Shown one piece after another: positions 3,001 through 44,535 of a stretch of DNA of 64,000 nucleotides. The notes beneath the pieces are model-generated. The model did not search any database. It was not told where the DNA came from and worked only from the letters and a program-made list of their open reading frames with translations. Every line of letters starts with the position of its first letter. Position 1 is the first letter of the stretch. This DNA is from Actinophytocola xinjiangensis (GTDB lineage Bacteria; Actinomycetota; Actinomycetes; Mycobacteriales; Pseudonocardiaceae), in assembly GCF_001921215.1 (NCBI RefSeq), contig NZ_MSIF01000019.1:1-64000 (forward strand), read 5' to 3'. The position numbers were made by a program, and so were the translations under genes.

Positions 3001-6000
3001 CGGCTGGGTTTCGTGTTCGCCGGTCAGGGTGCCCAGCGGCTGGGCATGGGTCGAGAACTGTATGACCGTTTCCCGGTGTTCGCGGCAGCGTTCGACGAGG
3101 TAGTGGATCGTTTCCCGGGCCTGCGGGAGGTCATGTGGGGCGATGCCGGGGCGCTGACTCGCACGGGTTGGGCGCAGCCCGCGTTGTTCGCATTGGAGGT
3201 GGCCCTCTTCCGGTTGGTGGAGTGGTTGGGTGTCCGGCCGGATGTGCTGGTGGGTCATTCGATCGGTGAGATCGCCGCCGCGTATGTGGCTGGAGTGTTC
3301 TCGCTCGAAGACGCGTGCTCGCTGGTGGGGGCTCGTGCTCGGTTGATGGAGGCGTTGCCTGAGGGTGGGGTGATGGTCGCGGTCCGTACGGCGGACGTGA
3401 CGTTGACCGAGGGTGTGTCGGTCGCAGCGATCAACGGTCCGGACAATGTTGTCTTGGCTGGTGTCGAGGCTGAGGTCATGGCGGCGGTGGGTGACCGTGA
3501 CTACAAGCGTCTCGAGGTGTCGCACGCGTTCCATTCACCGTTGATGGATCCGATGCTGGATGACTTCCGCGAGGCGATCGCCGGGATCTCGTTCCACGAG
3601 CCGGTGATTCCGTTGGTGAAGGACGTGTCGAACCTGGAGTACTGGGTGCGGCACGTCCGGGAGACTGTGCGGTTCGCCGACGATGTCGCTGCGGCGGAGG
3701 CGGACACGTTCCTGGAGATCGGTCCGGACGGGACGCTCTCGGCGTTGATTGACGGGATTCCCTCGCTGCGCAAGGACCGCGACGAGAAGACGGCGTTCTT
3801 CACCGCCGTCGCGCGACTGCACGTCACCGGTTCCACGGTGGACTGGACTCCGTTGTTGGCCGGCGGTCGACTCGTCGAGCTGCCCACCTACGCCTTCCAC
3901 CACGAATGGTTCTGGCCCCACCGTTCCCACCAGAACGGCGAACCGACCGACGGTCACCCGCTGCTCGGCGCCGTGGTCGCGCTCGCCGACAGCGACGAGT
4001 ACCTGAGCACGGCCAGAATCTCCCTCGGCTCCCACCCGTGGCTGGCCGACCACGTCATCGGCGGCCAGGTCCTCGTCCCCGGCGCCGCGCTGCTCGAACT
4101 CGCCATCCGTGCGGGCGACGACGCCGGGTGCGGCCGCGTCGAGCGCCTCACCCTCGCCGAGCCACTCACCGTCCCCGACCGCGGCGGCGTGCACGTCCAG
4201 GTCCGCGTTGGCGCCCCCGACCCCACGGGGTCCCGCGCCGTCACCATCCACAGCCGCCCCGGTGACGCGGGGGACCTGCCCTGGACCGCCAACGCCACAG
4301 GCCTGCTGTCCCCGACCGCCGGCACCGCACGCCCCGCCGAACGACCGGCCGACGCACAGCCAGTCCCCATCGACGGCTGCTACGACGGGCTCGCCGACGC
4401 CGGATTCGCCTACGGACCGCACTTCCAGGCCCTGCGCGCCGCCTGGCGCCACGGCGGCGACGTGTACGCCGAGGTCGCCCTCGCCGACACGGTCACCGAC
4501 GCCGCCCGGTTCGGTCTGCACCCGGCCCTGCTCGACGCGGGCCTGCACGCCGTCATGGTCACCGGCGAGCAGGGCGGCCAGGCCGAACTGCCCTTCGAAT
4601 GGCAGGGCGTCACCCTGCACGCCACCGGCGCGACCGCCGCACACCTGCGGCTCACCCGCCACGACAACGGCCTCGCGATCGACGTCACCGACGAGACCGG
4701 CGCGCCCGTGCTGACCGTGGACACACTCTCCGTCCGTCCGGTCGACCTGGCTCGCCCACCCGCCGACCCCCGCCGCGAGGCACTGTTCGGTCTCGAATGG
4801 ACCCCCGTCGGCACCCCGGCCGATCCCGCGACCGTCCCCTTCGTCGGGCCCGATCCCTTCGGTGGCAACGGCACGCTCGCCGACATCGACGCGGTCGCCG
4901 ACGAACCGGTCGTCGCGGTGTTCCTCAGCGGTGTTCCGGACGTCATCCCCGCCGCGCACCGCGTCGCCGCCCGCGCGCTCCACCTCGCGCAACGCTGGCT
5001 CGCCGCCGACCGACCGGGCAGGCTCGTGTTCGTCACCCGCGGAGTCGTCGACGGCGAGGACGTCGCGGCGGCGACCGTGTGGGGGCTCGTCCGCTCCGCG
5101 CAGTCCGAGCACCCCGGCCGGTTCGGGCTCCTCGACCTCGGCCTCGGCGCCACCCCCGAACTGGTCGCGCGCGCCCTGGCCACCGACGAACCGCAGCTGT
5201 CGGTCACCGCGTCCGGCGCCACCGCACCACGCCTGGCCAGGCTCACCGGCGAGCACGACCCGTCGACCTGGGACCCCGACGGCACCGTGATGATCACCGG
5301 CGGCACCGGCGGGCTCGGTGCTCTGGTGGCCACCCACCTCGCGCGCGGCCACGGCGTGCGGCACCTGCTGCTGCTGTCCCGCCGTGGCCCGGCCGCGGCC
5401 GGTGACCTCGTCGAGGACATCGCCGACCTCGGCGCCACCGCGACCGTCGTCGCGTGCGACGTCACCGACCGGGCCGCCCTGGAGAAGGTGCTCGCCGACA
5501 TCCCGGCAGCCCACCCGCTCACCGCGGTCGTGCACACGGCGGGCGTGCTCGACGACGGGGTGCTCGGCGCGCTGTCCCCCGAGCGGATGGACACCGTGCT
5601 CGCACCGAAACTGGACGCCGCCTGGCACCTGCACGAGCTGACCGCGGGACACGACCTCACCGCGTTCGTCGTGTTCTCCTCCGCCGCCGGCACGTTCGGC
5701 GGACCAGGCCAGGGCAACTACGCCGCCGCCAACGCCGCCCTCGACGCGCTCATGACGCACCGGTCGACCACCGGCCTCCCAGGGGTCTCCCTCGCGTGGG
5801 GTCCCTGGGACCAGGCCGCCGGCATGACCGGCGGTCTCACCGAAGCCGAGGCCCGCCGCCTCGCCGCCTCGGGCCTGCCGCCCATCACCCCCGCCGACGG
5901 ACTCGCCCTGTTCGACGCGGCCCTGTCCACCGGCGCGGTCAACGCGCTGCCCGTCCAGCTCGACCTCGCCGCCTTCCGCGGGCGGGGAACCGTGCCGCCG

Positions 6001-9251: not shown

Positions 9252-10004
9252 TCAGGCGACCGCGTCGACCCTGGCGGTGATCAGGTCGAGGATCAGCGGC
9301 TGGTGGTCCTGCAGGAAGAAGTGCCCGCCTGGCAGGACCTTCAGGTCGAACGGGCCGCTGGTGTGCGCTGCCCAGTCACGGGCCTCCTCGACGGTGACCT
9401 TCGGGTCGTCGTCGCCGACCAGCGCCGTGACCGGGCAGCGCAGCGTCTCACCGGGGGAGTGGCGGTAGGTCTCCGCCGCCCGGTAGTCGGCCCGCAACGC
9501 GGGCAGGATCATCGCCACCATGTCGGGGTCACCCAGCAGCGAGCCGTCGGTGCCCGACAGCCGCCGCAACTCCGCGAGCAGGCCCTCGTCCGTGCGCTCG
9601 TGCACCCGTTCGTCCCGCTCGGCGGTCGGTCCTCGGCGGCCGGAGGCGAACAGTCCGTGCACCTGCGTGCCCGCCGCCTGCAGCCGTCGCGCGGTCTCGA
9701 ACGCGACCGACGCGCCGAGACTGTGGCCGAACAGCACCAACGGAAGATCGGTCCACTCGGCCAGCGCCTCCACGGTCCCGTCAGCCAGCGCCGTCACCGA
9801 GTCGAGGCACGGCTCGGCTCTGCGGTCCTGCCTTCCCGGGTACTGCAGGCAGATGACCTCGATCGACGGCGCCAGCGCGCGCGAGACCGGGAAGAAGTAG
9901 CTCGCCGATCCGCCCGCGTGCGGGAAGCAGACCAGGCGGGCGCGTGGGTGCGGCGCCGGGTGGAACCGCCGCACCCACGCGGCGTCGTCCAGGGTGGTCG
10001 TCAT
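9252..10004 (-). CDS. Type II thioesterase (alpha/beta hydrolase)
   Basis: 250 aa. Type II thioesterases free PKS/NRPS carrier domains of aberrant or stalled acyl groups. The protein shows the family's opening FHP...P..RLVCFPHAGGSAS, the nucleophile elbow GHSLGA (Ser near 94), the Asp of GDDDPKV (near 201) and the catalytic His of GGHFFL (near 229). The length matches RifR/PikAV/GrsT-type enzymes. ATG 10004 has an AGGGAG Shine-Dalgarno. It is the third gene of the minus-strand operon with the DrrAB-like exporter, 33 nt after the permease stop, which ties that operon to the polyketide pathway. Confidence 0.94.
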   Translation of the reverse strand: MTTTLDDAAWVRRFHPAPHPRARLVCFPHAGGSASYFFPVSRALAPSIEVICLQYPGRQDRRAEPCLDSVTALADGTVEALAEWTDLPLVLFGHSLGASVAFETARRLQAAGTQVHGLFASGRRGPTAERDERVHERTDEGLLAELRRLSGTDGSLLGDPDMVAMILPALRADYRAAETYRHSPGETLRCPVTALVGDDDPKVTVEEARDWAAHTSGPFDLKVLPGGHFFLQDHQPLILDLITARVDAVA

Positions 10005-10037
10005 CGTCGCGGAAACTCCCTCACTTCCGACGATCCC

Positions 10038-10755
10038 TCATTCCCAACGGAAGATCTTCGCGGTGATCGGACCGAAGATCACGACGATCGCCGCCATGGT
10101 CAGCAGGTGCCACGGGTTGGCGCCGTCCCCGGTCCACGAGTCCTGCAACGCCTGCACGCTCGGTGGGAAGTAGCCGCCGAAGGTCACGACGAAGTCCGGC
10201 AGGAACGCCCTCGGCGCGTACACGCCGGCGAAGAACAGCGTCGGGATGAAGATCACGAAACTCGCGGCTGTCGCCGAACGGCCGTTGGGCACGACCGCGG
10301 CCAGCAGCAGACCGAGGGTCATCAGCGCGGACAGGCCGAGCAGGAACGAGAGGATGAAGTCGAGCGGATGCGCGGGCAGGGGGACACCGATGAACAGCGT
10401 GCCGACCAGCATCAGCAGCACCAGCGCGGACACCGCGGCGGCGAGCTGGGTGAGCAGCTGCGCGGTGATGAGCATGGCCGGTGAGACCGGCGTGGTGGAC
10501 AGTCGCTTCAGCACGCCCTTCTCGCGGTAGTTGGCGATGTAGGAGGGCATCGACTGCAGCGCGAGCACCGCCACGATGATCACGACCATCGACGGGGTGA
10601 AGTAGTCGATGAACCGCAGACCGCCCCATAACGGATCCGGGACGTTCATTCCGTCGATGTTGCCGAAGATGATCAGCAACGCGGTGGGCAGTCCGACTGC
10701 GACCCCCGTGTTGATCGGTTCCCGCAGGAACTGCTTGACCTCGACGAAGGTCATG

Positions 10756-10772
<17 letters not shown>
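10038..10772 (-). CDS. ABC-2 type transporter permease (DrrB-like)
   Basis: 244 aa from a TTG start. It is the membrane subunit of a two-component drug/polyketide exporter, partner of the upstream ATPase. Six hydrophobic segments are visible (near INTGVAVGLPTALLIIFG, MVVIIVAVLAL, AAVSALVLLMLVG, DFILSFLLGLSALMTLGLLL, ASFVIFIPTLFFAG and LLTMAAIVVIFGPIT), with the ABC-2 cytoplasmic loop REKGVLKRLSTTPVSP between the second and third. The TTG at 10772 has a GGGGAG Shine-Dalgarno five bases upstream, inside the 3' end of the ATPase gene, so the two genes overlap by 17 nt and are probably translationally coupled. The alternative ATG at 10754 has no ribosome site. Confidence 0.92.
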
Positions 10773-11688
<916 letters not shown>

Positions 11689-38161: not shown

Positions 38162-38524
38162 TCAGTGGGGTCCGGGTGCGGTGGGTCGCTGGGGGTACTG
38201 CTGCTGGGGCGGGTAGGGCTGGGTGGGTGCCGTGGGTGCGGCCGGCGCGGTGGGGCGGCGGTTGCCGACGGCGGCCGCGGCGACCATGCAGGCGACGCCG
38301 GTGAGTCCGAGCAGGACCGAGGTGGTGACCTCGATGATGTCCAGTCGCAGGAAGGTGTCGTCGTTGCCGGTGGTGTAGCACTCGGTGTTCTTGTCTGTTT
38401 CGGTCGGTGGTTCGCAGCGCCACTCGACGCCGCCGGCGAGCCGGGCCTCGGGTTCGGTGGCGTAGTTGTAGGCGAAGGCTGCGCCCAGGAACAGGAACCC
38501 GAGCACCAAGAAAACGATCTTCAC
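38162..38524 (-). CDS. Small membrane protein with Pro-rich tail
   Basis: 120 aa. N-terminal helix (IVFLVLGFLFLGAAFAYNYA), a short loop with two Cys, a second helix (TTSVLLGLTGVACMVAAAAVG), and a Pro/Gln-rich cytoplasmic tail (about 30 aa). Unknown function; the preceding minus-strand gene ends at 38624. Confidence 0.62.
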   Translation of the reverse strand: MKIVFLVLGFLFLGAAFAYNYATEPEARLAGGVEWRCEPPTETDKNTECYTTGNDDTFLRLDIIEVTTSVLLGLTGVACMVAAAAVGNRRPTAPAAPTAPTQPYPPQQQYPQRPTAPGPH

Positions 38525-38623: not shown

Positions 38624-39508
38624 CTAGCCGCTGGTGGGAGCGGGTTTGGTGGCGAAGATCCAGCGGTTGGCGGCCAGGGCGTCGTGGGGTTCGGGCAGGG
38701 GGCCCCGGCCGTGGTGGCGGGTGAAGTCGTAGGGGGTGTGGGTGGTGGTGGTCCAGCCTCGGGTGGTGAGGTCGGCGGCGGAGTCGGGGCGGGGTTCGCG
38801 GTCGAACAGGGCGAGCAGGTCCACGCCGGTCTGGCGCAGGGTGGCGCTGTAGACGGGGCTGGCGCGGACTTCGGGGCGTTCCCAGCCGGTTTTGATTTCG
38901 TAGGCGAGGGTGCTGCCGGGGGCGGAGAGTCGGTCGACGGTGTCGATGAGGTGGCGTTCGGGGGCGCTGGGTAGGTAGAGCAGTAGTCCTTCGGCGAGCC
39001 AGGCGCAGGGGGTGGTGGGGTCGAATCCGGCGGCGGTGAGGGCGGGTGCCCAGTCGGTGCGCAGGTCGGCGCTGATGGGGGTGCGGGTGGTGTGGGGGGT
39101 GAGGTGGAGGCGGTCGAGGACGTGGTGTTTGAAGGTGAGGACTTCGGGGCGGTCGATTTCGTAGACGTGGCAGTCGGGTGGCCAGGGGAGGCGGTAGGCG
39201 CGGGTGTCGAGGCCGGCGCCGAGGAGCACGATCTGGCGGGCGCCGTGGTGGGTGGTGTGGAGGAGGTGGTCGTCCAGGACGCGGGTGCGTAGTCCGAAGT
39301 AGCGGGCGAGGCGTCCCCACAGGGGGTTGGTGTCGCCGCCGGGGATGTCGTGGGGGTGGAGGGGCCAGGTGCGGCAGGGGTGGGCGGCGCGGACGAAGTG
39401 TTCGGCGTGGTGGTCCTGGGCGAGGCTGTCGGTGCGGTGGGTTTCGATGGCGCGGGCGGCGGCGACGAGGAGGGCTGTCAGGCCGACGCCGTGTGGGGTG
39501 TCGGTGAT
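38624..39508 (-). CDS. SAM-dependent methyltransferase (TIGR00027/LCMT-like), apparent ATC start
   Basis: About 294 aa. It matches the actinobacterial TIGR00027 family: GVGLTALLVAAARAIETHR, LLGAGLDTRAYRLPWP (SAM motif I), VYEIDRPEVLTFK, and CAWLAEGLLLYLP. There is no ATG, GTG or TTG near the family N-terminus. An ATC at 39508 has GGAG five bases upstream and gives ITDTPHGVGLT, as expected for the family, so I use it; CTG (Leu of GVGLTALL) is another option. It overlaps the isochorismatase gene by 31 nt, suggesting coupling. Last gene of the EF-hand operon. Methyl acceptor unknown. Confidence 0.82.
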   Translation of the reverse strand: MTDTPHGVGLTALLVAAARAIETHRTDSLAQDHHAEHFVRAAHPCRTWPLHPHDIPGGDTNPLWGRLARYFGLRTRVLDDHLLHTTHHGARQIVLLGAGLDTRAYRLPWPPDCHVYEIDRPEVLTFKHHVLDRLHLTPHTTRTPISADLRTDWAPALTAAGFDPTTPCAWLAEGLLLYLPSAPERHLIDTVDRLSAPGSTLAYEIKTGWERPEVRASPVYSATLRQTGVDLLALFDREPRPDSAADLTTRGWTTTTHTPYDFTRHHGRGPLPEPHDALAANRWIFATKPAPTSG

Positions 39509-40113
39509 GGTGGCTCCGTGTTGTCGGGGGTGAACCGGGTCCAGGTGTGGGGGTGGTCGTGGGTGGTGGTGCGGGCGCCGTAGAGGGCGCGTTGGAATCG
39601 CAGGATGTCGTCGTCGGCGAGGTGGAGGGCGGTGGTGCAGTCGGTGAGGATGGTGATGTGGTAGCCCTTTTGGAAGGCGGTGCGGGCGGTGGTGTCGACG
39701 CAGACGTCGGTGTAGAGGCCGGCGAACACGAGGTGGTGGGCGGCTCGGCGGGTGAGGTGGTGGTGCAGGTCGGTGTGGAGGAACGCGTCGAAGCAGGCTT
39801 TCTTGGTGAAGACGCGTTCGCCGGGGGCGGGGGTGACGGTGTGGAACTGGGCGCCCCAGGTTCCTTCGCGGCACTTGGGTGGGCGGCCTCGGGTGGCGTC
39901 GCGGTGTCGCCAGCTCGGTGGTTGGTGTTCGAGGTCGCCGATGAATCGGACGAACACGACTTCGGTGCCGTGGGTGCGGGCGGTGTCGATGGCGCGGGCG
40001 GTGTTGGTGGTGACGGCGTGCAGGGTGTCGGGGTTGTGTTGGTGGCGGGTCGCGGTGCAGAAGTCGTTCTGCAGGTCGACGACGATCAGCACGGTTCCTG
40101 GTTGGACGGTCAC
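39478..40113 (-). CDS. Isochorismatase-like cysteine hydrolase
   Basis: 211 aa from GTG 40113, whose GTGA overlaps the stop of the preceding gene. The triad of the superfamily is present: Asp in VVDLQNDF, Lys in TKKACFDAF, Cys in YTDVCVDTTAR, with the usual fold order. These enzymes hydrolyse isochorismate, nicotinamide, N-carbamoyl compounds and others; the substrate cannot be told here. There are no isochorismate synthase or siderophore genes nearby, which argues against siderophore function. Confidence 0.88.
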   Translation of the reverse strand: MTVQPGTVLIVVDLQNDFCTATRHQHNPDTLHAVTTNTARAIDTARTHGTEVVFVRFIGDLEHQPPSWRHRDATRGRPPKCREGTWGAQFHTVTPAPGERVFTKKACFDAFLHTDLHHHLTRRAAHHLVFAGLYTDVCVDTTARTAFQKGYHITILTDCTTALHLADDDILRFQRALYGARTTTHDHPHTWTRFTPDNTEPPSPTPHTASA

Positions 40114-41156
40114 CGTCCGGCCGCCGACGTGGTGTGGGGGTGGAGGTGGTCGAGGAGGGTGTCGACGAGGTCGGTGGTGGTGGCGGTGGTGGTGTCGCTG
40201 TGGGCGGTGTGGAGGGCTTGTTCGACGGTGTCGATGGCTCCGGCGCAGCCGCCGTGGTGTTGGGCGATGGCGGCGGCGGCGCGCACGGTGGCGGTGGGGT
40301 TGACGGTGTTGTGGCCGGTGAGGTCGTCGGCCGAGCCGTGGACGGTTTGGTATTCGATGAGGCCGAGGACGTCGGGGTGTAGGTAGGTGTTTTCGGTGTG
40401 GTGGTTTTCCTGGCGTTGGCCGCCGAAGCGGTCGAGGAGCACGACGTGCATGATGTCGGCCCATTCGTTGCCGGCGATGAGTAGGGTGCGGCCGGGCAGG
40501 CCGTGTTCGATCAGGTCGCGGTTGACGGTGTCGGGTTGGCACAGGCGGATCGGGGTGCCGGTGCGGCGGGTGAGGTCGGTGACCCAGTCGTCGAGGGCGC
40601 CGTCGAGCAGGTGGAACTTGTAGGCCATGAGGATCTGGTGGGGTCCGGTGTCGGGCCATTCCCGGTGGGCGCGGGCGAGGGCGTAGCCGATGACCTGTTC
40701 GGTGGTGTCGCGGCTGAAGCGCATGGTGCGGGTGATTTCGCCGGGGGCGTGGCTGTTGTGGCCGGTGTAGAAGCCCTGGGCCTCGTCGCGGATCAGCAGC
40801 AGGGTGGTGTCGTGGGTGGTGAGCAGGTCGGTTTTGACCGCGCGGAGTCGTTGGCGGACCAGGTAGAGGGATTGGGCGTTGATGGCGGTGCGGAACACCG
40901 CTGTGACGCTGCGGTCGGCCAGTTCGCGGCAGTACTGTTCGTAGTGGTCGGCGTCGTCGCGGGTGGTGGCGCGGATCTGGTCGAGGCCGGCGTGGCGTAA
41001 GGACCGGTAGGTGTGGTAGGTCCTGGGCGAGCGCACGATGTGGAAGGTGACGCCGTGGGTGTCGCCGAGGTGGGTGAGGACGCGGTCGAACACGGCGGCC
41101 AGTTCGGGTCCGGTGCCGTGGCCGATCGCGAGCCCCACTGTGACGGTGTTGGCCAT
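40110..41156 (-). CDS. Isocitrate/isopropylmalate dehydrogenase-like protein
   Basis: 348 aa. The opening VTVGLAIGHGTGPELA corresponds to the GDGIGPE motif of the family. RDEAQGFYTGHNSHAPGEIT aligns with the RENTEGLYSG region, EWADIMHVVLLDRFGGQ with the metal-site strand, and TVHGSADDLTGHNTVNPTAT with the EPVHGSAPDIAG...NP nucleotide-binding loop. The metal-binding Asp/Asp pattern and substrate Args are altered (HGTG for DGIG), so the substrate is likely not isocitrate or isopropylmalate. It is 4 nt after the EF-hand gene and overlaps the hydrolase gene. Probably an oxidative step of an unknown small-molecule pathway. Confidence 0.82.
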   Translation of the reverse strand: MANTVTVGLAIGHGTGPELAAVFDRVLTHLGDTHGVTFHIVRSPRTYHTYRSLRHAGLDQIRATTRDDADHYEQYCRELADRSVTAVFRTAINAQSLYLVRQRLRAVKTDLLTTHDTTLLLIRDEAQGFYTGHNSHAPGEITRTMRFSRDTTEQVIGYALARAHREWPDTGPHQILMAYKFHLLDGALDDWVTDLTRRTGTPIRLCQPDTVNRDLIEHGLPGRTLLIAGNEWADIMHVVLLDRFGGQRQENHHTENTYLHPDVLGLIEYQTVHGSADDLTGHNTVNPTATVRAAAAIAQHHGGCAGAIDTVEQALHTAHSDTTTATTTDLVDTLLDHLHPHTTSAAGR

Positions 41157-41160
41157 CTGG

Positions 41161-41694
41161 TCAGGCCCCGGGTTGTCCGACGAGGTGGTCGCCGGCGATG
41201 CCGGCCTTGTCGGGGCGGTAGTAGTCCTTGATTCCCTGGACCCAGGTGGTGACGGTGATCTCGTCGTCGTCGTTGGGTTCGAACGCGTCGAACAGTGCTT
41301 CGATGTTGGCGCGGTCGAATCCGATGGCGAGCATGAGGGCGATGAACACGGGGCGTTCGATGAGGCCGTCGCCGTCGGGGTCGCCGAGGGCGGCGAGGGA
41401 GAGTGCGAAGTCCTCGATGGTGTCGTCGAAGCGTTCGGGGGAGAGTACGCACGCCGAGAATTCTTCGAGGGTGATCATGTTGTCGCCGTTGGTGTCGAGT
41501 TCGGCGGCGAGGGTGGTCCAGTAGCGGCGGAACGCGGCGAGCATGGCTTCCTTGGCGGCGTCGCTGGAGGTGTCGGCGGCGTCGATGACGCGGTGGGCCA
41601 TGAGGTCGAAGTCGTTGGCGCCGAGTTGGCCGGAGCCGTCGGCGTCGAACAGGGTGAAGACGAGGTGGACCCGGTTGGTCGCTTCCGCGCGCAT
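41161..41694 (-). CDS. Four-EF-hand calcium-binding protein (calerythrin-like)
   Basis: 177 aa, the same length as calerythrin of Saccharopolyspora erythraea. Four EF loops: DADGSGQLGANDF (about 18-30), DTNGDNMITLEEF (about 67-79), DPDGDGLIERPVF (about 104-116) and the degenerate PNDDDEITVTTW (about 140-150). No signal peptide, so cytoplasmic. It leads the operon with the IDH-like, hydrolase and methyltransferase genes. Calcium control of that pathway is a possibility, not shown. Confidence 0.9.
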   Translation of the reverse strand: MRAEATNRVHLVFTLFDADGSGQLGANDFDLMAHRVIDAADTSSDAAKEAMLAAFRRYWTTLAAELDTNGDNMITLEEFSACVLSPERFDDTIEDFALSLAALGDPDGDGLIERPVFIALMLAIGFDRANIEALFDAFEPNDDDEITVTTWVQGIKDYYRPDKAGIAGDHLVGQPGA

Positions 41695-41932
41695 GGTATT
41701 TCCGGCCTTTCGCTATTGTTTCTCCGGATTTCGCACACCGTTGTGTCGGTAAATGCGCTTGTACTATGCCAGACGTCGACCGGGGCGCCTACGACGAATT
41801 TCGCGATCACCGGAAAGAGTGAATTCCGCAGGATTGGTCTCGCATTACGTCAATTACGCCGACCGGGTGGCTGTTCCGGGGGCCGCACCCACTGTCGGTC
41901 CCACCTGCGGCGGCGTCGGTGTCAGGACGGCG

Positions 41933-43430: not shown

Positions 43431-44414
43431 CTAGCGGGGGTCGACCCACCAGCGGGCCTTGTAGATCTGCGCGTCGGGCAGGGTGTGGGAGTCGGTGGGC
43501 AGGTGCAGGCGGACCGTGGCCGTGCACCAGGTGCAGCCCGTTCCCGGTTCCGGCGCGGTGGTCAGTGTCTGGCCCGTGGTGGGGTTGGTGGTCACCGATT
43601 TGATGCCTGTGACGTCGATGGACTCGGCGCCGCGGTAGTCGTCGTGGAACACGCCGGTGCGCGGGTCGAGTTGGTAGACGCGGCTGCCGGTGCTCACCCA
43701 CAGTCGGTCACGGCCGGCGACCGGCTGCAGGTCGTGGCCCCACGGGGTGGGCAGCGCGTGCCGCACGCTGGGGGTGAGTGTCGGCGCCGCCGCCGTGCCC
43801 CCGACGGTCAGCCCGACGACCTCGTGGTCGCCGACCGTCCACAGCAGTGCGCGGCCGGTGTCCCAGTACACCGCGTGGGCCCCGGGGAACGCGAACTCGG
43901 TGTGGTCGGTGGACCGGGGGCCCTGTGAGGCGGTGTAGACCCGCACCCAGCCGCCGGTGCTGGCCGCGACGGCCACGTTGCCGTCGGGCAGGACCTCGAT
44001 GCTGTGGGGGTTGGCCGAGCGGCCGACGTCGCCGGCCCAGTAGGAGCCGGTGCCCGACGGGTAGGGGACCATCGCGGCCAGCCCGTAGGAGTCGGTGGTC
44101 AGCAGGTAGCGCCGGTGGCGGTAGGTGCGCAGTTTCGCCTCGTCGGGCAGGCCCCAGTTGTCGAGCAGGTCGGCGAATCCCTGGTCGGCGGTCGGCCGCC
44201 AGGACCAGCGGACCGCGCGCGGGTCGTTCCAGTCGCCGCGGGTGTCGAGCACGGTGATCTGGTCGCGGGCCTGGTCGGTCACCACCACGTCGCAGCAGCG
44301 TCCGGTGTTCGGGTTCTGTCCCCGTTCGGCCGTGGCGCCCGGCGGGGCGACGGTGAGGGCGGCGGACACCGCGAACCCGATGGTCAGCGCCCGGGCAACA
44401 CGGGACATGCGCAT
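43431..44414 (-). CDS. Secreted beta-propeller-like protein (DUF6528-like)
   Basis: 327 aa from ATG 44414 (GGAGGA upstream). Signal peptide VARALTIGFAVSAALTVA with APPGATA. The mature protein starts with VVVTDQARDQITVLDTRGDW and repeats strand motifs such as HSIEVLPDGNVAVAAS, HAVYWDTGRALLWTVG and DRLWVSTGSRVYQLDP, consistent with a propeller. Two Cys pairs (RCCD; CTWC). The domain name is from memory. Ends 5 nt from the convergent RidA stop. Confidence 0.7.
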   Translation of the reverse strand: MRMSRVARALTIGFAVSAALTVAPPGATAERGQNPNTGRCCDVVVTDQARDQITVLDTRGDWNDPRAVRWSWRPTADQGFADLLDNWGLPDEAKLRTYRHRRYLLTTDSYGLAAMVPYPSGTGSYWAGDVGRSANPHSIEVLPDGNVAVAASTGGWVRVYTASQGPRSTDHTEFAFPGAHAVYWDTGRALLWTVGDHEVVGLTVGGTAAAPTLTPSVRHALPTPWGHDLQPVAGRDRLWVSTGSRVYQLDPRTGVFHDDYRGAESIDVTGIKSVTTNPTTGQTLTTAPEPGTGCTWCTATVRLHLPTDSHTLPDAQIYKARWWVDPR

Positions 44415-44535
44415 GGCTTCCTCCATGATCGGCAAGGGTCACGAGCCCATCAGAGCGGAGGAAACATACGACCTTTGCCGGTCGAACACCACCGGCCCGG
44501 CGGGTAACGTCCCGGCGAACGTCTCAGTGAAGGTC

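Follow-up and report, generated by a model that had tools for sequence, protein, structure and literature searches.

The EF-hand and methyltransferase genes are the steadiest part of a free-standing actinobacterial gene cassette

With which enzyme, if any, does a bacterial EF-hand protein work when its gene stands at the head of a row of enzyme genes? The question is raised by a locus in a stretch of 64,000 nucleotides from Actinophytocola xinjiangensis, called the window below, in which four genes on the minus strand, spanning 38624–41694, would be transcribed in the order EF-hand protein, IDH-like enzyme, isochorismatase-like hydrolase and methyltransferase (MT; Table 1). Knowledge of calerythrin-type EF-hand proteins in bacteria goes back to 1987 (PMC10574481). 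In the part of that review cited here, calerythrin and CabB appear as buffers and/or transporters and CabC has a role in spore germination, with no enzyme partner named for these proteins. The cassette provides a bacterial calerythrin-type EF-hand protein with a nearly constant candidate enzyme partner.

Table 1. Features of the cassette and its predicted promoter in the window
Feature	Position	Strand	Basis or remark
EF-hand protein, SCP (sarcoplasmic-calcium-binding-protein) type, 177 aa	41161..41694	-	operon's first gene; Pfam EF-hand_7
IDH-like enzyme (isocitrate/isopropylmalate dehydrogenase fold), 348 aa	40110..41156	-	Pfam Iso_dh
Isochorismatase-like cysteine hydrolase, 211 aa, GTG start	39478..40113	-	Pfam Isochorismatase
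LCM-type SAM-dependent methyltransferase, TIGR00027, probable ATC start	38624..39508	-	Pfam LCM and TIGR00027
GGAG, probable MT ribosome-binding site, within the hydrolase gene	39514..39517	-	sequence reading
Operator-like imperfect palindrome TTCACTCTTTCCGGTGA, upstream of the EF-hand gene	41807..41823	-	18-base consensus
-10-like box TGGCATAGT, 34 bases past the 18-base palindrome consensus	41763..41771	-	spacing conservation

Layout and conservation of the cassette

The EF-hand and IDH-like genes are separated by a 4-nt gap, the IDH-like and hydrolase genes overlap by 4 nt and the hydrolase and MT genes overlap by 31 nt; these coordinates agree with the spacing given in the original prediction for this locus. 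The 31-nt overlap holds as it had been stated, but it needs a rare ATC start codon for MT at 39508. This ATC is the probable start, as the MT frame contains no ATG, GTG or TTG between 39874, a GTG within the hydrolase gene, and the conserved part of MT. A GGAG sequence lies five bases upstream of the ATC. An EDxW-like tail of the hydrolase, judged by eye with one relative seen, was considered as a peptide motif and put down to the MT ribosome-binding site and start being read in the hydrolase frame. An odd codon usage was also considered as an optimum for high expression, which was rejected on finding no such usage in EF-Tu of the same genome.

The cassette occurs sporadically across actinobacteria. 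When loci were fetched with the IDH-like protein, 25 of 30 carried all four genes, always in the order EF–IDH–hydrolase–MT, and a search of 249 genomes of the window's bacterial family gave 22 IDH-like copies, each of them, by coordinates, in a complete cassette. Some of the genomes with G labels are the same assemblies as named loci, so the G-genome count and the named-locus count are not independent. The 4-nt overlap between the IDH-like and hydrolase genes was kept in 23 of 27 cases, based on script-chosen starts, which are rough, as is the GC-based picking of genes. The coupled operon originally proposed was thus borne out in its tight spacing and constant order, and its genes are conserved together in other actinomycetes, the reverse of the outcome that had been named as counting against it. 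The alignments comprised 31 IDH-like, 27 EF-hand, 27 hydrolase and 27 MT rows, the trees 60 EF-hand and 61 MT rows and the comparison of identities 22 rows, leaving out rows with an odd length, a stop codon or a missing gene.

Outside the cassette, no flanking ORF family was common to more than 4 of the 30 loci; a first check of the flanks had used a rough gene picker, which missed the hydrolase in most loci. The cassette is free-standing, and its arrangement is beyond chance. The WYL-regulator gene that neighbors it in the window was rejected as a member on the same count of flanking families. Some loci depart from the four-gene form. Two of the 30 (L001 and L016) have an IDH–hydrolase–MT arrangement, and a search of both draft genomes found no cassette-type EF-hand gene. 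One genome (G766) carries only hydrolase and MT, and the Microtetraspora loci L006 and L007 lack the hydrolase.

Carriage on mobile elements was considered and rejected: the IDH-like protein had no match in 72,556 plasmid records, and viral contigs yielded no confirmed relative of either the IDH-like or the MT alignment. A defense system was likewise rejected, with PADLOC matching none of the four proteins at E 0.01. No published account of the cassette was found in the literature searched, among the matches listed.

The EF-hand protein and the methyltransferase

The first gene product matches Pfam EF-hand_7 at 45.8 bits, above the curated cut-off, and its AlphaFold2 model (pLDDT 92.5) has a compact four-EF-hand fold. 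All of the top 24 fold matches in the PDB are SCP-like or photoprotein folds; the best-ranked include juvenile hormone diol kinase, calexcitin, S. coelicolor 3akb, coelenterazine-binding protein and calerythrin, some with small-ligand names. The protein shares the fold of these SCP-type proteins with a TM score of 0.63–0.78 on the query, and its C-terminal tail resembles that of calexcitin and the juvenile hormone diol kinases. It differs from them in its low identity (≈18–26%), two mostly degenerate loops and a nearly constant MT partner gene. The acidic residues D17 and D28 of loop 1 and D67 and E78 of loop 2 are present in 54 of 54 copies, making loop 2 a canonical calcium loop, whereas position 12 of loops 3 and 4 is mostly non-acidic. 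By its sequence and model, the protein is a putative calcium binder of the SCP type, as the label "calerythrin-like" had anticipated. EF-hand genes apparently without a stop codon in two loci (L009 and L026) are probably an artifact of the script, in which the tblastn match overran the stop.

MT passes both curated cut-offs of its class, with 181.1 bits for Pfam LCM (PF04072; cut-off 22.3) and 253.4 bits for TIGR00027 (cut-off 93.55). The nearest solved structures are ML2640 (profile match 1.1e-65) and Rv0731c, which are named putative methyltransferases only; unlike other LCM/TIGR00027 enzymes, the cassette subfamily is tied to an EF-hand gene. P450 genes lie next to two MT paralogues, a near one (L194) and a more distant one (L197), the latter overlapping its P450 gene by 4 nt; these neighbors count for a small-molecule substrate. 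One of three outgroup rows chosen for the MT tree fell inside the family. An MT that appeared broken, giving two tblastn pieces (L004), proved to be open; its insert, which keeps the frame, is rich in RGDDR-like repeats.

Directly downstream of the close EF-hand matches (at least 240 bits), MT was found in 32 of 32 cases, and 10 of these 32 loci lack an intact IDH-like or hydrolase gene. By contrast, tblastn detected MT within 4 kb of none of 41 distant EF-hand matches (at most 168 bits) from the same search, five of the searched stretches being shortened by contig ends. The steadiest part of the cassette is therefore EF-hand plus MT, and the two genes that usually lie between them, for the IDH-like enzyme and the hydrolase, are optional. 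The four-gene unit originally described is indeed conserved together, but its nearly constant pair is EF-hand plus MT. The middle pair has probably been lost several times: on the EF-hand tree, the EF–MT-only state requires eight changes, at least four of them forced by starred branches, a count that was as low in 48 of 500 label shuffles and that does not separate loss from gain. One genome (G913) retains remnants of the IDH-like and hydrolase genes between EF-hand and MT. The distance correlation between EF-hand and MT (r 0.55) is in the range of most other pairs (0.50–0.58), and IDH–hydrolase alone stands out at 0.84. Three genomes have a solo MT in addition to the EF–MT pair; together with L001, L016 and G766, these show that MT is able to exist without the EF-hand protein.

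We tentatively read the cassette as free-standing actinobacterial equipment for a calcium-responsive small-molecule pathway, in which the EF-hand protein would act at the MT step. It could be a calcium-dependent regulator of MT, or a calcium-triggered carrier of the substrate or product of MT. The carrier option is modelled on the coelenterazine-binding protein, which has the same fold and is thought to hold its ligand.

It is improbable, in our estimate, that MT instead methylates the EF-hand protein itself, on a carboxyl group or a side chain, tuning the calcium sensor while the IDH-like enzyme and hydrolase serve another use of the operon. The steadiness of the pair would suit such a role, and the LCM family includes PP2A leucine carboxyl methyltransferases, which the MT profile reaches weakly (best match 1.5e-05). 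However, the EF-hand protein ends in variable residues, which makes methylation at the C terminus as in PP2A unlikely, and both the MT copies without an EF-hand protein and the two relatives beside P450 genes speak against MT acting on the EF-hand protein.

Nor do we give much credence to the EF-hand protein being a mere calcium buffer co-expressed with an unrelated small-molecule pathway. The degenerate loops 3 and 4 would be compatible with this, as would the description of calerythrin and CabB as buffers and/or transporters in the part of the review cited above (PMC10574481). A buffer does not fit the difference in MT neighbors between close and distant EF-hand matches, or the retention of EF-hand with MT where the middle enzymes are absent. 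Furthermore, the EF-hand protein is conserved nearly as well as the cassette enzymes, with a mean pairwise identity of 0.63 vs. 0.65–0.67 across 22 genomes.

The IDH-like enzyme and the hydrolase

The second protein matches Pfam Iso_dh (PF00180) at 44.7 bits, above the curated cut-off of 27, and falls far below the NCBIfam equivalogs for isocitrate, isopropylmalate, homoisocitrate and tartrate dehydrogenases, the best score being 33.9 bits against a cut-off of 393. The top 50 PDB matches of its AlphaFold2 model (pLDDT 89.4) are IPMDH, homoisocitrate dehydrogenase, IDH3 and their kin, with TM scores of 0.60–0.68. Like the 3-isopropylmalate, homoisocitrate and isocitrate dehydrogenases of PF00180, it has the fold, the NAD-loop HGSA-x-D and the catalytic R, R, Y, K, D, D set: R101, R123, Y130, K180, D209 and D234 are invariant in the profile alignment (31 of 31), positions that we take to be the two substrate arginines, the Tyr/Lys catalytic pair and the first two metal aspartates. 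Unlike in those enzymes, the sequence match lies mostly within the NAD loop, there are invariant RSxRxYH and FRTAxNAQ blocks, and the third metal-site aspartate (the IPMDH D245 position) is replaced by V in 25, P in 4 and L in 2 of the 31 members, next to an invariant H237. At the position of the remaining substrate arginine (IPMDH R104), the profile alignment has a gap, and K108, invariant in 31 of 31, is a candidate.

The change in the GDGIGPE motif that had been reported was found again, as GHGTGPE in the window and G-x-G-T-G in 31 of 31 aligned members. It had been taken to make a new substrate likely. This motif is weak evidence by itself; a new substrate is better supported by the missing third metal aspartate and by the new blocks of invariant sequence. 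What stands is that the family is divergent and that the enzyme probably has its own substrate: family members score 542–672 bits and all others at most 59, a value exceeded in 296 genomes of the phylum only by the window's own copy. A variant of a housekeeping enzyme was rejected, since intermediates were absent from those 296 genomes. The IDH-like family forms a branch that stands well apart within a textbook superfamily and has an altered metal site.

The hydrolase matches Pfam Isochorismatase at 138.8 bits, above the curated cut-off, and its nearest solved relatives are the putative isochorismatase 3kl2, biuret hydrolase and ureidoacrylate amidohydrolase. With these and nicotinamidase it shares the Pfam family and the Asp-Lys-Cys triad (D13, K104 and C138, kept in 27 of 27). 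It differs in falling far under all five NCBIfam equivalog cut-offs listed, including biuret amidohydrolase (72.4 of 370 bits, the best), RutB (54 of 377.95) and nicotinamidase (44.7 of 174). The invariant catalytic residues would fit the IDH-like protein and the hydrolase both being active enzymes.

Beyond the gene anatomy of the cassette, which the data show, we infer a calcium dependence, a contact between the EF-hand protein and MT, and the following chemistry. The IDH-like enzyme would bind NAD together with a divalent metal and a malate-like acid, which it would oxidize, probably with decarboxylation, although decarboxylation is not assured given that the third metal aspartate is missing in all 31 members. 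The hydrolase would act on the same precursor by cutting an amide or a comparable bond, and MT would presumably cap a carboxylate or hydroxyl of the resulting small molecule. Since no transporter or regulator accompanies the cassette, the product may be small and diffusible.

The EF-hand protein might alternatively regulate the IDH-like enzyme, which we think distinctly improbable. The model here would be the NAD-IDH of the diatom Phaeodactylum tricornutum, a true isocitrate dehydrogenase; according to the part of that study cited here, its fused C-terminal EF-hand domain contributes to the enzyme, and deleting the domain disrupted the dimer and the activity (PMC7460673). In the cassette, too, an EF-hand unit is genetically tied to an IDH-fold enzyme, their genes adjoining with the 4-nt gap in the window. 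Unlike in the diatom enzyme, however, it is a separate protein with MT as its steadiest partner: EF-hand and MT persist in the 10 loci without an intact IDH-like gene, and two loci have IDH–hydrolase–MT without EF-hand.

The predicted promoter

Upstream of the EF-hand gene, 39 of 56 regions matched at least 13 positions of the 18-base palindrome consensus, compared with 0.8% of shuffled regions. The spacing between palindrome and -10-like box was 33–36 bases in 23 of the 56, and 18 of these 23 matched the box at 8 or 9 of its 9 positions. Among 12 genomes picked for carrying the promoter motif or a near form, eight had the composite pattern once per genome, at the cassette. The predicted promoter is conserved and, by these matches, cassette-specific.

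With its own promoter, the pathway might go further and constitute a new calcium-controlled module, in which the EF-hand protein and its dedicated methyltransferase switch on or release a small methylated signal made from a malate-like precursor via a new IDH branch; we hold this extended form to be rather unlikely. Since the cassette comes with a candidate partner, a defined promoter and variants in which genes were lost naturally, the function of a bacterial EF-hand protein becomes testable with two purified proteins.

The cassette's enzyme classes are common in biosynthetic clusters, and P450 genes adjoin two relatives of MT, yet it is very improbable that the cassette belongs to a known type of antibiotic cluster, as a remnant with tailoring functions or as a sub-cluster, given the lack of an outside ORF family common to more than 4 of the 30 loci and a predicted promoter specific to the cassette.

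The cassette and its distribution

The original prediction of four genes separated by a gap of 4 nt and then overlapping by 4 and 31 nt was borne out; all lie on the minus strand. The encoded proteins were assigned to the Pfam families EF-hand, Iso_dh (isocitrate/isopropylmalate dehydrogenase fold, referred to in the following as IDH-like), Isochorismatase (the hydrolase) and LCM (methyltransferase, MT), all above cut-off. No in-frame ATG, GTG or TTG was read near the start of the MT gene, and translation probably begins at an ATC; in the nearest relative, G887, MT apparently starts with a GTG preceded by GAGGAG. The composition of the window cassette is extreme: the third codon position is C in 79% of its 1030 codons and T in a single one. 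On the coding strand, GC skew was −0.25 to −0.43 in its genes and averaged −0.01 to −0.08 in relatives (26–30 per gene), where individual MT copies reached −0.31. The codon skew was absent from EF-Tu of the same genome; a milder form was seen in the gene of the small downstream protein, for which a Pfam search returned nothing over a cut-off.

Coordinates of the cassette and associated features
Feature	Location	Strand	Remarks
Four-gene cassette	38624-41694	minus	
Probable MT start codon	39506-39508	minus	ATC at 39508, GGAG five bases ahead
Small protein	38162-38524	minus	Apparently membrane-bound; 99 nt downstream of MT
DUF6528 protein	43434-44435		N terminus signal-like, judged by eye
MT of Actinomadura atramentaria (locus L004)	9797-10864		In-frame insert of ~68 residues, RGDDR-like repeats abundant
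Second EF-hand copy of genome G810 (locus L200)	4765-5608		Downstream MT in broken frames

The same neighbourhood was sought in other actinomycetes, with the IDH-like protein as query and one genome per species, and was found: of 30 loci (56–64% identity) in Streptomyces, Kitasatospora, Actinokineospora, Amycolatopsis, Saccharothrix, Streptosporangium, Microtetraspora, Actinomadura and others, 25 had all four genes, in identical order every time. The EF-hand gene was present beside the IDH-like gene in 28/30 loci, the hydrolase in 27/30 and MT in 29/30 (the insert-bearing L004 copy counted), and the 4-nt overlap of the IDH-like and hydrolase genes recurred in 23/27. Two loci (L001 and L016) had an IDH–hydrolase–MT arrangement, and a cassette-type EF-hand gene was not found elsewhere in those genomes (best match 65 bits in one, nothing in the other). 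Microtetraspora lacked the cassette-type hydrolase. In Streptomyces albidoflavus NRRL B-1271 (locus L023), the cassette is reduced to the EF-hand and IDH-like genes plus a 24-residue MT remnant.

The cassette is rare, occurring in 4/394 genomes at class level and 22/249 in the window's family, the window's own counted in both. When the IDH-like profile was run against 296 phylum genomes, no sequence other than the copy in the window scored above 59 bits, and the weak matches were mostly confined to the NAD loop. The cassette might instead be a tailoring sub-cluster, a much less likely rival reading; when as much as 8 kb of flanking sequence (less at some loci) was compared across the 30 loci, a set of 2,436 reading frames running from stop to stop over ≥80 codons, every reading-frame family outside the cassette was common to at most four loci. 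In full-text literature searches that covered few subscription papers, neither the gene set nor an EF-hand/LCM pair was described among the matches listed.

EF-hand and MT genes as the steadiest pair

The steadiest pair of the cassette is EF-hand and MT. A search of the 249 family genomes with the EF-hand profile gave 32 matches of ≥240 bits (31 genomes), followed by 41 of ≤168 bits. By coordinates, 22 of the 32 sit in complete cassettes, which include all 22 IDH-like copies; the other ten (G790, G016, the second copy of G810, G913, G817, G919, G920, G737, G702 and G722) have neither an intact IDH-like gene nor an intact hydrolase gene alongside, and MT is nonetheless present, at most ~320 bases downstream in all ten. 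As a control, 4 kb on each side of the 41 lower matches (five stretches being shorter owing to contig ends) was searched by tblastn (E 0.001), and MT, IDH-like or hydrolase sequences were detected in 0/41. The 35 MT matches above 360 bits comprised 22 full cassettes, nine EF-hand–MT pairs, one hydrolase–MT pair (G766) and three solo copies, whose host genomes each carry an EF-hand–MT pair as well. Pairwise gene distances were most strongly correlated between the IDH-like and hydrolase genes (r 0.84); the EF-hand–MT value (r 0.55) was not above those of the remaining pairs (0.50–0.58).

The EF-hand–MT-only state required eight changes on the EF-hand tree, of which starred branches force at least four, and seven on the MT tree (at least three forced), such counts not distinguishing loss from gain. 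Fragments of both the IDH-like and hydrolase genes persist between EF-hand and MT in G913, showing at least one loss of this middle pair. Because of these remnants, the scattered EF-hand–MT-only copies likely reflect repeated loss.

A conserved promoter of the cassette

The cassette is preceded by a promoter of its own. Of 56 regions lying ahead of the EF-hand gene, 39 matched the palindrome TTCACCCTTTCCGGTGAA at ≥13/18 positions versus 0.8% of shuffled regions, a level biased upward since the consensus was built from the same sequences. Unaffected by this bias is the fixed spacing: the best palindrome match lay 33–36 bases ahead of the best TGGCATAGT match in 23/56 regions, three of them from EF-hand–MT-only copies, and in 18 of the 23 the TGGCATAGT box had at most one mismatch over its 9 positions. 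With three mismatches tolerated, the composite pattern had exactly one match in each of 8 of 12 cassette genomes searched whole, always directly upstream of the cassette's EF-hand gene, and none in the remaining four; a reversed control pattern had none in the 12. In the window, the palindrome lies upstream of a weak-looking −35 region, and its position would be that of an activator site.

Predicted roles of the four proteins

Tentatively, and with slightly less than even confidence, we read the cassette as a calcium-responsive pathway of small-molecule methylation, in which the EF-hand protein would bind calcium and serve MT, presumably by contact, and the IDH-like enzyme and hydrolase would supply optional steps ahead of methylation; the substrate and methylated product would both be small molecules. 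A small-molecule substrate is favoured because P450 genes accompany MT paralogues: the near paralogue L194 is adjoined by a PNPOx-like gene and a P450 gene, and the more distant L197 has a 4-nt overlap with a P450 gene. These neighbours set the small-molecule reading against a rival one, compatible with the steady pairing, in which MT methylates the EF-hand protein itself.

In the EF-hand protein (predicted model, pLDDT 92.5), the key residues of loops 1 and 2 were kept in 54/54 copies, position 12 of loops 3 and 4 was mostly not acidic, and the C terminus varied. Its nearest folds were juvenile hormone diol kinase, calexcitin, S. coelicolor 3akb and coelenterazine-binding protein. Mean pairwise identity over 22 genomes was close to that of the enzymes (0.63 vs 0.65–0.67). 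Two further, less likely rivals are that the EF-hand protein is a plain calcium buffer and that it regulates the IDH-like enzyme.

The IDH-like model (pLDDT 89.4) matched isopropylmalate dehydrogenase (IPMDH), homoisocitrate dehydrogenase and IDH3 at TM 0.60–0.68. By profile alignment, R101, R123, Y130, K180, D209 and D234 fall on catalytic positions and were kept in 31/31, whereas V, P or L, next to an invariant His, stands in place of the third metal aspartate of the IDH family. One substrate arginine aligns with a gap; the invariant K108 could fulfil its function. The substrate-determining helix of the IDH superfamily reads AQSLYLVR and appears closer to the hydrophobic IPMDH type than to isocitrate dehydrogenase. 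In the hydrolase, the D, K and C residues were kept in 27/27.
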